Below, in pieces: positions 49,001 to 55,785 of a stretch of DNA of 64,000 nucleotides. Below the pieces are notes generated by a model. It was not told the origin of the DNA, did not search any database, and was given only the letters and a program-made list of their open reading frames with translations. Source of the stretch: Vandammella animalimorsus (GTDB lineage Bacteria; Pseudomonadota; Gammaproteobacteria; Burkholderiales; Burkholderiaceae_C); assembly GCF_002285285.1 (NCBI RefSeq), contig NZ_NSJF01000002.1:62001-126000 (forward strand), read 5' to 3'. Within the stretch, counting starts at the first letter, position 1. The number at the start of each line of letters is the position of its first letter. The position numbers and the translations under genes were made by a program.

Positions 49001-49076
49001 GCCGGTTTAGCTCAGCTGGTAGAGCACCCGCCTTGTAAGCGGTAGGTCGTCAGTTCGAATCCGACAACCGGCACCA
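49001..49076 (+). tRNA. tRNA-Thr (anticodon TGT), integration target
   Basis: Cloverleaf with acceptor GCCGGTT/AACCGGC, anticodon loop CTTGTAA, T-loop AGTTCGAATC and an encoded CCA. Positions 27 and 43 (C and T) do not pair, a small oddity in the anticodon stem. The last 16 bases are duplicated at 55654-55669 and serve as the attachment core of the inserted element. The gene itself remains complete. Confidence 0.96.
49061..49076 (+). repeat. attL core (3' end of tRNA-Thr)
   Basis: CCGACAACCGGCACCA, identical to 55654-55669. It forms part of the T-stem, the acceptor stem and the CCA end of the intact tRNA. Confidence 0.92.
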
Positions 49077-49180
49077 CATAGCACAGGGCCAGACACTAGA
49101 AAACACTGATAAATCAATAGGTTATTCGTCCAGAACGACGGTAATTTGTCCAGGTTTGCAGTTTTCTGTCTGGCTCTCAT

Positions 49181-49240
49181 TTACGGTACTGTTACGGTAC
49201 CGTTAGCGCGGCATCCTAGGAACGGTTTTCTGTACCGTAA
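49181..49240 (+). repeat. Candidate integrase arm-type sites, left end
   Basis: TTACGGTA starts at 49181 and at 49192, exactly 11 bases apart, and its inverse TACCGTAA is at 49233-49240, just before the integrase start. The second copy extends to TTACGGTACCGTT, also found near the right end. The rest of 49077-49252 holds no gene. Confidence 0.65.
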
Positions 49241-49252
49241 CTAGGAGTTCCC

Positions 49253-50677
49253 ATGTTGACCGATCAACAATGCCGCGCCGCCGTCTGCCCAGACGGACGT
49301 AAACGAATCAAACTGATGGATTCAGGGGAGAGAGGCGCAGGTGGTCTGTACCTGTCTGTTGGCCCACAGTCCCGCGTTTTCCGTTTTGATTACATGCGCC
49401 ACGGCAAACGCCGTACGCTGACACTGGGCGCATATCCATCTGAGTACTCACTGTCTAGCGCACGCGCGGAGGTGCGCGGCTACCGGGCGCGTATGCGCTC
49501 TGACCCTACCTACGACCCGTCGCTGGAACGTGCAGCGATCCGTGCAGCCGCTATCGAGGCTCAGCAACCCGTGGACGTAGGGGAGACGTTCCGCGAGGCT
49601 GCTGAGCATTATTTTGTCCATCGCTCGGACTGGCAGCAGATGCCTGACCATCTCCGTGAACTCTGGCGTACTGGACAGCCTCTCCCTAGCGGCACGCGAC
49701 ACCCTCACACGACCGAGCATAGGGCGCGTGACAGGGTTAAACGGCATCTATTCCCAGCCCTGGGGCACGTGCCGATGCAGGAGTTGACCCCCCAACTGCT
49801 GGCGTCTGTGGTTGACCGTGTGGGCGCGTCTGACGAGCGGGGGCGTGTGCGCGGTTTGCTGTGCGGGATCGTTCGTCTCTGGCACCAGAAAAACCAGCAC
49901 CTACCAGACCCCCTATACGCGCTCCCGGCGTATACGACGGGGAAACCTCACGTCCGCAGAAATTTCCCCTCAATCGTCGAGCCTGCACGGTTTGGTTTGA
50001 TGATTCGTGACGTTCGTTTGGTTAGTGGGTATGCCAATTTGAACCCTCTCGGGTGCTATTTCATGGCGCAGATTTACCTCTGGCAGCGTCCTGGCGCACT
50101 GGCGCAGATGCGGTGGTCTGAGGTTGATTTCAATCGTGAGATTTGGTTGTGCCCGCTGACGATTCTGAAAATTTCCACGGAAATGAAACGTCGGGCTGAG
50201 CTGGATATTCGGGACGGTTTGGAGGAGGGTTATTACAAAATACCGCTACCTAAACAGGTTCTCGAATTATTGGAGAAATTGAGGCAATTCAAAAACTCTG
50301 AATTTGTTTTTGCCAGCAGTCGGGGAAATCCATTCTCGGACGGAGCCATGCGCCAGGCGTTTAGCCGCGCTGGTTATTTGGGGCGGCAAACAATGCACGG
50401 TATTCGGGCTACTGCCAAAACGGTTTTGGAGGGGTATTTTGAAATCCCTGACAGGCTCGTTGTTGAGGCTCAATTGGGGCACGGTCTGGATCGGTACGGT
50501 ACAGCGTACCAGCGCGGAGCATTTATTCTGAAACGCAGACGTCTGACACAGGGCTGGGCTGATTTGGTGGACTGGCTGGCTGACGGGAAATCGATCAGAG
50601 ATTTCCGATCTGAATTTTTGGTTTCAACCCCCGGACTGTCTGAACTATCTGACGCAGAATTGGTTGATGTTACGTAA
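49253..50677 (+). CDS. int: P4-type tyrosine recombinase (integrase)
   Basis: 474 residues. The N-terminus (RAAVCPDGRKRIKLMDSGERGAGGLYLSV) resembles the DUF4102 arm-binding domain of tRNA-targeting integrases. Catalytic residues: R279 in RPGALAQMRW, H382 and R385 in MHGIRATAK, H410 in QLGHG and the likely nucleophile Y419 in GTAYQRG. The ATG has TAGGAG 8 bases upstream. It is placed directly after attL, the usual layout. It could be transcribed from the tRNA promoter. Confidence 0.93.
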   Translation: MLTDQQCRAAVCPDGRKRIKLMDSGERGAGGLYLSVGPQSRVFRFDYMRHGKRRTLTLGAYPSEYSLSSARAEVRGYRARMRSDPTYDPSLERAAIRAAAIEAQQPVDVGETFREAAEHYFVHRSDWQQMPDHLRELWRTGQPLPSGTRHPHTTEHRARDRVKRHLFPALGHVPMQELTPQLLASVVDRVGASDERGRVRGLLCGIVRLWHQKNQHLPDPLYALPAYTTGKPHVRRNFPSIVEPARFGLMIRDVRLVSGYANLNPLGCYFMAQIYLWQRPGALAQMRWSEVDFNREIWLCPLTILKISTEMKRRAELDIRDGLEEGYYKIPLPKQVLELLEKLRQFKNSEFVFASSRGNPFSDGAMRQAFSRAGYLGRQTMHGIRATAKTVLEGYFEIPDRLVVEAQLGHGLDRYGTAYQRGAFILKRRRLTQGWADLVDWLADGKSIRDFRSEFLVSTPGLSELSDAELVDVT

Positions 50678-50786
50678 ATAGGAGGGTAACTGTGTGTAAA
50701 TCAGACGGGATTCGGTTGAATCCCGTTGTTTTTTGTTCTAGATTGTCTGTCAACACCATTCACCATTTCACTGCGAGGTTTTGACG

Positions 50787-51002
50787 ATGGAGCAATTTAC
50801 TGATTCTGATTTGTTGTGTGTCAAACGGCTGTCCGCCTATATTGGTTTGTCTCGGGCATCAATCTATGAATCGCTGCGGGACGGGAAACTGCCACAGCCG
50901 ACGATGCTGGTTCGAAATAGTCCTAGATGGGAAAAATCCGAGATTGATGCGTTTCTGCGTGCTCGTGCGCAGGAGAGATTCGGAGGGCGTAAAAATGTTT
51001 AA
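50787..51002 (+). CDS. AlpA-like helix-turn-helix protein, probable excisionase
   Basis: 71 residues with a MerR/AlpA-type HTH: LLCVKRLSAYIGLSRASIYESLRDGKLPQP and a recognition segment PRWEKSEIDAFLRAR. AlpA proteins act as excision factors or activators of a neighbouring P4-type integrase. The ATG at 50787 was chosen over the TTG at 50781. The next gene starts 8 bases before its stop. The 109-base gap from int contains no other gene. Confidence 0.82.
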   Translation: MEQFTDSDLLCVKRLSAYIGLSRASIYESLRDGKLPQPTMLVRNSPRWEKSEIDAFLRARAQERFGGRKNV

Positions 51003-51183
51003 TTTCGATAAACCTGATTATTCGCACGTTATGCACTCTGCCACTGTGACAATCGATATAACGGCAGAGGAATCGTCTATGATTTTTCACGTTTTTGACT
51101 ACGGAGTTGAATACCTCGACGACGATGAAATGGATTTGCTGAATATATTATTCGCCAAATTAAAAACCGAGTTATGGCCGTGA
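50995..51183 (+). CDS. Small acidic protein of unknown function
   Basis: 62 residues, MFNFDKPDYSHVMHSATV onward, rich in Asp/Glu (EYLDDDEMDLL) and aromatic residues, ending KLKTELWP. It has a GGAGGG ribosome site 8 bases upstream and overlaps the AlpA-like gene by 8 bases, so it is probably translated. A terminator follows directly. No family was recognised; an antirepressor or a control protein for excision or copy number are guesses. Confidence 0.6.
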   Translation: MFNFDKPDYSHVMHSATVTIDITAEESSMIFHVFDYGVEYLDDDEMDLLNILFAKLKTELWP

Positions 51184-53125: not shown

Positions 53126-53433
53126 TCGGGGCGGGGCCTGGGACGGCCCCCAGGGGCGGAGCCCCGCCCCCGCCACTACGGCAGGGGCATTGTGGGGCGA
53201 ACGCGTAGGTTTTCCCGGCCTCCGTGGCACCCCCACCCTGATAGAGATTCAGTTCGTTATTCAGTCCAGCTAACCCCTGCTGGACAACCTATGGACTGCG
53301 CCTACGGCTCAGCCCACAGGTTGACCACAGGGCGGAAGGCGAAAAAAAACCGGCGATGAGGGAACTATTCAGCGCCGCGTGGATCGCCCAAAAAAATAGG
53401 GGCCACGGAGGCCCCATAAATACACGTTAAAAC
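53126..53433 (+). other. 308-base gap upstream of rep, candidate replication origin region
   Basis: No gene is supported. Visible structure: a 10-bp inverted repeat GGGGCGGGGC/GCCCCGCCCC (53128-53170) with inner CCTGGG/CCCAGG, probably the mob terminator; a direct repeat CCACAGG twice, 11 bases apart, near 53320; and a hairpin GGGGCC/GGCCCC (53399-53415) 18 bases before the rep start. Rolling-circle double-strand origins often lie beside rep, but no nick consensus could be identified. Confidence 0.4.
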
Positions 53434-55785
53434 ATGGACATTGTATCACAGCCGCAATCGCGGCAAAAACTGGCGTTTCGCATGACGTCGGCAGCAGAGC
53501 GTCGGTTGCTGCTGAACAGGCGTCCAGTCGGGCAGTTGGTTCAACACCTGTTCGATGCGCATGAGGTTGCTGGCAGGGCTGCGTCGGCTGCCTTGGGTGA
53601 GGATGGGGATTTTTCGGAATTCCATCGTGCGTGCGCCCTACGCGATCTGGCAGCCTGCCCTCCTAATCGAAATTTGGGCGATTACGTCGCAGATCGCGTT
53701 CGCTGCCTGTCTGGGGCTGATTACCCGTTGCGAGAGCCACTGCGTTCTGGTGTGGACGTGGTTCAGGAATTATCGTCGGACGTTGAGCACTCGTTGGCTG
53801 CTGGTCGATCCGTGTCGCTGCTGGAGCTGCTGGTTTCGCGGGGGAATCGGCGGGCGCTGGCGCACCACAGGTACGCGGACGCGAAAAAACGTTCTGACGA
53901 CCTGGCGCGAGGGCTGGACGACGTTGCTGCTCGGGCAGACGGTTCCTGGTCGAGCGTTGCGGCGAGTTTGTCCGCGACGCTGCGTGAGTGTAGAGCGGAG
54001 TTGACGTTTACAGGGCGGCGAGGGTGGCGTCCCAGCACGCTGCGCCCGCTATCGTCGTGCCGGGGGTCGTTTTGTCCGTGTTGCGAGCTATCGCGGGTTC
54101 GGCGTACCGTTCACGCGTGCGGTCAGTTTTTCAACAGCCGTGAGAATCAGCGTTCAGGCGGTGAGAGGGACGTTTCTGTCGTTTTGACAGTCGGGCGTCC
54201 GGTTGGGGCTGGGGACGTTCAGTTGGTTGTGCAGGACGTTTATGAGCGTCTACGACGTGTGCGGCGTCGGCGTGCGTGGGGTGGTGTGGTGGGTTACGTG
54301 TCGGCGTTACACGTCGCCCGCACGGCTGATCGGCGTTGGCATGTTCACCTGCATTTATTTTTGCGCCTGCGCCCAGGCGTTGACGCGGATGAGATTTTTT
54401 CAGGCTGGCGAAACGTTGAAAACGAAATTATTCGAATCAAAACGGTAGGAGGGCATGGGGTTGGTTTGCTGGCATACATGCTGACGGACAGTGCCGATGA
54501 TGAGCAGGATTGGCTGCCGTTTGGCGGTAATGCTGGCGGGCATTTCATCGATACGGTTGCGGACGATTCGGTGGCGCGGGCGCTGCTGTTTGCGACGCAG
54601 TTGCGGGGCGTTCGTCGATTTTCCAGCGGTGGTGCGTTTCGCGGGTGTTTTGAGTTGCAGAAACAGGCAGTTCCAGTGAGTGACGTTCGGGGGCAGGGGC
54701 GTGAATGGACTACGCGTCAGACGCAGTTCGAGTGGCAGCCTGCGCGTGTCGGTTACTGGAGTACGGGTTCTCGGGTAATTGCGAGTGTGGGGCGGGCGCG
54801 TCCTACTCCTGCCGTTGGTGTGGGGGGGTATGTTTCGTTGCGGACAGTGTTTTACGCCGTTCCATCGCTGCGCGTTGGTGGGGGTGCCGGGGTGGCGGCC
54901 CCTCTGACTGTTCAGGATATAGGAATCAAAAGGTCATCCCCTCCGGCTGTCCTGCTGGAGGGATATCGTCCCCTGTCGCTGCCTGGGGTGACGGCGCAGA
55001 GCGTTGCAGATCGCGCTAGGTTTTTGCAGGAGTTCGAGGACGACTGCTACGTGCCAGACGTTGTTCATCCTGACGACTGGATGAGGGTGAAAATTCGTCG
55101 TTACGCTGCAAAACGTTGGCAGGATTTTTGTCGTCGTGTGCCGAAAATCTCGTACCAGGCGCGGGTTGTTGGCGATTTGTCGAGGTTTTCTGTTCGCCCT
55201 CAACCGCTGGTCGCTGAGGCGTCGGCTGCCGTCGTTCTGGTGCAGTTGCCGTTCGCAGCGCCACAGGTGCCGCGCAGGTTGATTCCCCATCCTGTCGTTT
55301 ACGGACAGCCTGGCGTGATGCTGGTGCCGTCGCTGGTTGGTGGGATTCGCGTCGATGCTGCTGGTTGGCGATATCGACCGTTGCAGTTGTCCACAACGTC
55401 AGAAAAAATCCGGGTTTATCGGCGGTTGATGGGGGGTGATTTGTCGGGTTTTTCGGCTACGCTAGCGCGGCTGATGCATGAGCGTGTGGCGCAGCGTCGA
55501 GAGGTGTTGCGTCGGGCGACGTATGATGTTGAGGTTGCAGCAGCCCGCTGGGTGGGTGTCAGTGGTGCTGGTTACGGTATCATTACGGTACCGTTGCCTA
55601 GTTTGCCTGCTGGCGGGGCGGTTTCTCCTATGAGGATCGCTCAGTTTGCGGAGCCGACAACCGGCACCAAACCACAAGCCCACATGCCAAGCATGTGGGC
55701 TTTTTTTTGCCTGCGCGATGCCAAAGCGCTGAATGCGGCTGCCGTGCGGTATGTCCAAGGTCAGCCCAGCCCCTGGCATGGGTAG
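53434..55785 (+). CDS. Rolling-circle replication initiator Rep, reading through attR
   Basis: 783 residues as integrated. A Cys cluster SSCRGSFCPCCELSR (from C209) and motif 1 VSVVLTVGRP precede the HUH motif WHVHLHLFL (H303, H305, H307). A motif 3 tyrosine is in LLAYMLT (Y348). These match Rep_1-type initiators, which nick the origin through tyrosine. The C-terminal 400 residues are unrecognised. Codons 740-745 lie in attR; the last 39 codons are host sequence. In the circle the frame would end TAG two codons past the core. The start lacks a clear ribosome site. Codon use is T-rich, unlike the host. Confidence 0.82.
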   Translation: MDIVSQPQSRQKLAFRMTSAAERRLLLNRRPVGQLVQHLFDAHEVAGRAASAALGEDGDFSEFHRACALRDLAACPPNRNLGDYVADRVRCLSGADYPLREPLRSGVDVVQELSSDVEHSLAAGRSVSLLELLVSRGNRRALAHHRYADAKKRSDDLARGLDDVAARADGSWSSVAASLSATLRECRAELTFTGRRGWRPSTLRPLSSCRGSFCPCCELSRVRRTVHACGQFFNSRENQRSGGERDVSVVLTVGRPVGAGDVQLVVQDVYERLRRVRRRRAWGGVVGYVSALHVARTADRRWHVHLHLFLRLRPGVDADEIFSGWRNVENEIIRIKTVGGHGVGLLAYMLTDSADDEQDWLPFGGNAGGHFIDTVADDSVARALLFATQLRGVRRFSSGGAFRGCFELQKQAVPVSDVRGQGREWTTRQTQFEWQPARVGYWSTGSRVIASVGRARPTPAVGVGGYVSLRTVFYAVPSLRVGGGAGVAAPLTVQDIGIKRSSPPAVLLEGYRPLSLPGVTAQSVADRARFLQEFEDDCYVPDVVHPDDWMRVKIRRYAAKRWQDFCRRVPKISYQARVVGDLSRFSVRPQPLVAEASAAVVLVQLPFAAPQVPRRLIPHPVVYGQPGVMLVPSLVGGIRVDAAGWRYRPLQLSTTSEKIRVYRRLMGGDLSGFSATLARLMHERVAQRREVLRRATYDVEVAAARWVGVSGAGYGIITVPLPSLPAGGAVSPMRIAQFAEPTTGTKPQAHMPSMWAFFCLRDAKALNAAAVRYVQGQPSPWHG
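55572..55595 (+). repeat. Candidate integrase arm-type sites, right end (inside rep)
   Basis: TTACGGTA at 55572-55579 and TTACGGTACCGTT at 55583-55595, again exactly 11 bases apart as at the left end, 59 bases before attR. They lie within the rep coding sequence. Confidence 0.65.
55654..55669 (+). repeat. attR core
   Basis: CCGACAACCGGCACCA, identical to the tRNA-Thr 3' end. It lies within the rep reading frame, encoding P-T-T-G-T plus the first base of the next codon. Confidence 0.92.
55677..55708 (+). terminator. Displaced tRNA-Thr terminator
   Basis: AGCCCACATGC and GCATGTGGGCT form an 11-bp stem with a CAA loop, followed by eight Ts (55701-55708). It starts 8 bases after attR, where the tRNA-Thr terminator would be before insertion. 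It is now read in frame by rep. Confidence 0.9.

Follow-up and report, generated by a model that had tools for sequence, protein, structure and literature searches.

An att core inside the rep frame of a putative integrative mobilizable plasmid at tRNA-Thr in Vandammella animalimorsus

Among known systems, mycobacteriophage BPs comes closest as a precedent for an att site placed inside a controlling gene. There attP lies inside the repressor gene and immunity is integration-dependent; integration was shown by experiment to shorten the protein and to remove an ssrA-like tag (PMC4557955). Transcription across attP that depends on circularization has been described for the haloarchaeal provirus SNJ2, in which circularization is reported to join int and the replication genes, and in this archaeal virus the transcript runs from within int over attP into the replication genes, with a new ORF at attP (PMC13107129). 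In addition, a stem-loop or terminator ahead of the stop codon gives rise to functional non-stop mRNAs, handled by tmRNA, in the short genes arfA and brfA (72 codons, 72 aa) (PMC8012679).

The element described here shares features with each of these systems. Like BPs, its predicted attP lies within a key ORF and integration alters the C-terminus of the protein, whereas in this case the frame becomes longer and encodes no tag, and the change is predicted from sequence. Like SNJ2, it is an integrating element with a putative rolling-circle Rep, and its circle is predicted to join int and rep over attP, but here rep lies upstream of attP and int downstream. Its predicted terminator ahead of the stop codon recalls arfA and brfA, although in those genes the structure is built in, whereas here a 2.2-kb gene would acquire a host terminator by integration. 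Among the papers listed in a literature search with limited coverage of subscription journals, we found none that describes integration turning a rep gene into a non-stop gene.

A putative integrative mobilizable plasmid at tRNA-Thr

The window, which is the whole stretch of DNA analysed (64,000 nucleotides), carries an insertion of 6,593 bp from core to core (~6.6 kb) in a tRNA-Thr gene, with the layout of an integrated plasmid (Table 1). Its genes, all on the + strand, code for a tyrosine integrase, an AlpA-like factor, the product of a small ORF, a MobV relaxase and a Rep_1-type Rep, and the element is present in one copy in its own genome. The att core is an exact direct repeat with just these two copies in the window, and the tRNA-Thr gene stays intact after recombination. 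The boundary of the element could be fixed because another genome of the same genus, G086, carries an empty tRNA-Thr site, where the uninterrupted tRNA gene is followed directly by DNA resembling the right flank of attR (AACCACAAGCCCACATGCC...). Two features are those of an integrative mobilizable element, namely site-specific integration, seen as a core repeated directly at the 3' end of a tRNA gene and as an empty site in G086, and the coding of both an integrase (PF00589/PF13356) and a relaxase (PF01076, MobV NF041497). The best explanation is an integrative, mobilizable Rep_1-type plasmid, whose excision and mobilization are putative.

Table 1. Features of the element and of its integration site (positions in the window)
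Feature	Positions	Strand	Evidence
Host tRNA-Thr (anticodon TGT), integration target; 3' end is attL	49001..49076	+	ARAGORN; Rfam RF00005
attL core, 16 bp	49061..49076	+	exact repeat; empty site in G086
Pair of candidate arm sites for the integrase, TTACGGTA (49181 and 49192, spacing 11 bp)	49181..49199	+	pattern scan, repeat search
Tyrosine integrase, 474 aa, co-directional with the tRNA	49253..50677	+	PF13356 9.3e-14, PF00589 2.3e-9
AlpA-like excisionase/regulator, 73 aa from TTG	50781..51002	+	PF05930 29.8 bits vs cut-off 21
Small ORF, 62 aa, without family match	50995..51183	+	profile searches
MobV-type relaxase, 546 aa	51485..53125	+	PF01076 101.5 bits; NF041497 104.5 bits vs cut-off 100
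rep; the chromosomal frame codes for 783 aa, the predicted circular form for 746 aa	53434..55785	+	PF01446
Pair of candidate arm sites for the integrase, inside rep, TTACGGTA (55572 and 55583, spacing 11 bp)	55572..55590	+	pattern scan, repeat search
attR core, 16 bp, within rep, filling codons 741-745 plus the first base of 746	55654..55669	+	exact repeat
Intrinsic terminator of the host tRNA-Thr, lying in the integrated rep frame	55676..55708	+	hairpin and T-tract; 7/7 other genus sites

The AlpA-like protein also matched TIGR01764 under the cut-off, and an ATG lies two codons 3' of its TTG start. The long C-terminal half of the relaxase gave weak SMC-type matches and may be coiled-coil-like. 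The gap between mob and rep contains inverted arms 167 nt apart (53217-53231 and 53399-53413) and a 6-bp GC hairpin (53399-53415), which could possibly belong to a replication origin or to a control of the rep leader; an Rfam search of this gap gave one chance hit only, far under the gathering score.

In plasmids, the integrase matched 270 records (best 31%) and the relaxase 1314 records, at less than 60% identity and with none covering 80% of the query. None of the stretches retrieved with the integrase in the genome contigs (0/19) or viral contigs (0/15) was confirmed, nor any of those retrieved with the relaxase in viral contigs (0/18). Among 299 family genomes, a sample drawn from a larger group, three besides its own contained a related integrase at E up to 1e-40: a distant relative adjoins the tmRNA gene in G009 (L011), and those of G196 and G257 lie beside tRNA-Pro. 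A second att copy was located in G257, where the element measures 7.9 kb, and none was found within 19 kb in G196; the present Rep was absent from the stretches examined in all three genomes. Additionally, in G150 the same tRNA-Thr carries a putative island of 41 kb with two core copies, and near-copies of a hairpin follow both of them (L052, L053). In two comparisons, no convincing gene ran across the second att copy of the G150 island or of the G257 element, and an 83-aa frame crossing the latter looks spurious.

The 3' end of rep at the attachment site

The match of Rep to PF01446 is marginal, scoring 33.3 bits where the cut-off is 33.2 (residues 206-314, profile positions 7-117 of 253), and reached 35 bits in the genome-wide search. 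No NCBIfam match and no sequence match in the PDB were obtained, and a structure model of residues 1-745 made without an alignment was too poor for a fold search (mean pLDDT 33.6); in this poor model the last helix ends at residue 702. The protein also contains what we take to be an HxH motif. Searches for relatives of Rep gave none in the viral contigs collection, none in phages at E up to 1 and none in plasmids, where the 12 records at E up to 10 were chance hits at E 4-9; in the genome contigs collection 18 stretches matched the pattern and none was confirmed. In samples drawn from larger groups, Rep matched its own genome and G086 among 299 family genomes, the G086 match being the tRNA-Thr site only, its own genome only among 399 order genomes (with residues 196-739 as query), and its own genome and G1042 only among 360 class genomes. 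The G1042 match, a short stretch with a stop and with no int or mob within the 17 kb read, was judged to be due to chance. PF01446 itself occurred in four of the 299 family genomes including its own, and the other three matches lie on contigs of ~5 kb or less.

The rep frame has no stop ahead of the att core and runs across attR. An earlier note on this DNA had placed the core at codons 740-745, one codon out from the position given in Table 1, and its proposal that the circle restores a stop was borne out in the predicted junction, which reads ACC ACA TAG, with ACA as codon 746 and TAG as codon 747. In the chromosome the frame continues for 38 sense codons (746-783) to a stop at 55783-55785. 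On integration, Rep loses its last residue and its stop and gains these 38 host-derived codons. The geometry of rep and att is confirmed, the circle itself being predicted. As in an integration-dependent switch of the BPs type, the att core lies inside the coding frame of the gene that would be controlled.

Given the composition of the left flank, one of the first two codons past the core would be a stop by chance in ~5% of cases. By codon usage the rep frame was the best of the six up to the core, and its last 51 codons scored z = 3.0. Since this signal persists to the core, rep probably ends inside attP; over short stretches the test discriminates weakly, because the host-derived 38-codon extension, put to the identical test, also scored z = 2.5. 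Furthermore, in the predicted circle two pairs of TTACGGTA with equal 11-bp spacing flank the core, one in rep (55572/55583) and one before int (49181/49192), and a further copy, inverted, lies at 49233. These pairs look like integrase arm sites, which Int may bind. Because candidate arm sites also lie within rep, attP as a whole, that is the core and one candidate arm-site pair, would overlap the 3' end of rep, a new detail of this locus.

We consider these data to be probably best explained by an architecture that is compact and overlapping, which may have a partial side effect on Rep, and not by an evolved switch. The extension of Rep could matter by itself if the 783-aa protein with its 38-residue host tail were altered in activity or stability, and the full frame is indeed open to 55783. 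However, the tail would vary between genus sites, so that no particular tail can be selected, and we regard this explanation as very unlikely.

The host terminator within the integrated rep frame

The host tRNA-Thr terminator that the earlier note had seen in frame ahead of the chromosomal rep stop does lie 5' of 55783. This terminator is strong, with a 12-bp stem (55676-55702), a tract of eight T (55701-55708), a folding energy of -20.7 kcal/mol and a z of -5.1, and it sits 74 nt 5' of the new stop. The att core was found in 8/10 genus genomes, and a hairpin-T terminator starts 5-7 nt past the CCA in 7/7 genomes besides its own, a count over the genus genomes with the exact core. The terminator can be assigned to the host tRNA-Thr because all of these other genus sites carry one.

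In a wider set that includes the genus sites, 50 core matches were listed, 18 of them without a locus. The 33 sites examined comprise 31 at tRNA-Thr and two that are not; one site (L043, G150) precedes a putative island and not plain host DNA. A stricter terminator finder, run after a looser one, identified a strong terminator within 20 nt at 18/31 tRNA-Thr sites (the seven genus sites included). The other 13/31 had no strong terminator, and a non-stop layout would therefore not arise in every host. At the 18 strong-terminator sites the register used by Rep was open through the T-tract in 15, and the other two registers in 13 and 14; with the looser finder, which gave 24/33 sites, the registers were open in 18, 17 and 20 of 24. 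Since an open frame is common in every register, it is a generic property with no sign of selection on Rep, and in any of the registers an ORF crossing the tRNA end at such a site will in most cases reach the terminator first and a stop only afterwards. Among the genus sites alone (n=7, including near-identical copies) the Rep register was open through the terminator in 7/7 and the others in 4/7 and 4/7, a trend that leans towards the switch described in the following paragraph.

In that switch, put forward in the earlier note, the integrated rep mRNA would end at the terminator, tmRNA would rescue the ribosomes, Rep would be degraded and excision would restore the gene, so that replication is silenced in the chromosome. 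The geometry of the in-frame terminator, the weak start context of rep, which has no evident Shine-Dalgarno, and the open Rep register at the other genus sites are all in agreement with it. The host does have a tmRNA, and the note's premise that rolling-circle firing from the chromosome is harmful holds in another system, ICEBs1, where replication from the integrated element can be lethal (PMC9956884). Regulation through non-stop mRNAs is also known from arfA and brfA (PMC8012679). However, the claim that rep transcripts mostly end at the terminator was not supported. An in-frame hairpin with a T-tract is present before the rep stop, but published data predict its repression under translation: in E. 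coli, the ribosome that follows RNA polymerase represses terminators situated late in the coding sequence, the efficiency falling to 40% of the control in one late-ORF construct and being abolished in an earlier study cited there (PMC4824070). Because translation represses late-gene terminators, any non-stop message of rep should be partial, and along the 2.2 kb of this gene ribosomes should have caught up with RNA polymerase. On the other hand, rep is without a clear ribosome-binding site, so the coupling may loosen and termination may exceed that reported for the E. coli constructs. We expect partial termination, with a mix of non-stop product and 783-aa Rep, and Rep left by leaky termination would perhaps still work. 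Silencing of integrated Rep also lacked support because in the family as a whole the Rep register does not stand out (15 vs 13 and 14 of 18), and the searched collections held no Rep relatives that would show conservation. We saw no evidence of selection shaping the register as an off-switch, and consider such a switch unlikely; the same low probability applies to the wider proposal that rep is complete in the circle only, with integration turning it into a non-stop gene through the host terminator in many hosts and damping replication without a repressor.

According to the compact architecture that we favour, recombination into tRNA-Thr would swap the sequence 3' of the core, and the host terminator, which otherwise follows the tRNA, would come to lie within the rep frame of the integrated element. 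Chromosomal Rep would then consist of the extended 783-aa form mixed with some non-stop product, the latter as a partial by-product. int would end up behind the tRNA, and no strong terminator separates the two.

Predicted connection of rep and int in the circle and in the chromosome

The stretch from the attL core to int contained a single weak terminator match, of 5 pairs, and the fold of 49077-49140 had a z of 0.13. No strong terminator follows tRNA-Thr on the element side (49077-49252). Since this side is without one, tRNA-Thr would lose its terminator on integration, and transcription from it may continue into int, which is preceded by AGGAG and co-directional with the tRNA. Thus rep and int would be continuous in the circle, where rep would read into int, and would be separated on integration, which would expose int to tRNA-Thr read-through. 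Unlike the present element, the G150 island and the G257 element both carry a hairpin-T stretch immediately next to the tRNA on the side of the element (by eye in G257).

In ICEclc, the promoter Pcirc serves int in the circular form. The intB13 transcript of that element has been assigned to Pcirc, an outward-facing promoter at one element end, which is a dedicated and mapped promoter (PMC2892462, PMC9286271), whereas here we found a weak promoter match only. This outward match (9/12) at 55556-55583 overlaps the arm-type repeats inside rep and in the circle would face int; six promoter-like matches were found against a shuffle mean of 2.7. The topology could then be a function in its own right: transcription in the circle, from rep or from a promoter at about 55556-55583, would cross attP into int, integration would cut this link, and the integrated int would get tRNA-Thr read-through, with the terminator acting to separate rep from int and not to make non-stop messages. 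The near absence of terminators from the core to int, the direction of int and the AGGAG ahead of it are consistent with such a role, as are the precedents of SNJ2 (PMC13107129) and ICEclc. Against it, the promoter match is weak and int may own a promoter missed by the scan. It also overlaps with the compact architecture, in which the same topology is a consequence and not a function. We regard a functional role as possible, although somewhat doubtful, and the compact overlapping architecture remains our preferred explanation.

How integrating rolling-circle elements avoid firing in the chromosome is a real problem, as the lethality in ICEBs1 illustrates (PMC9956884). An att site embedded in rep would make the integrity of the replication gene depend on topology, without a regulator. 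Should the effect be small, the locus would still provide a clean natural case in which to study how host terminators affect element genes running across att sites.
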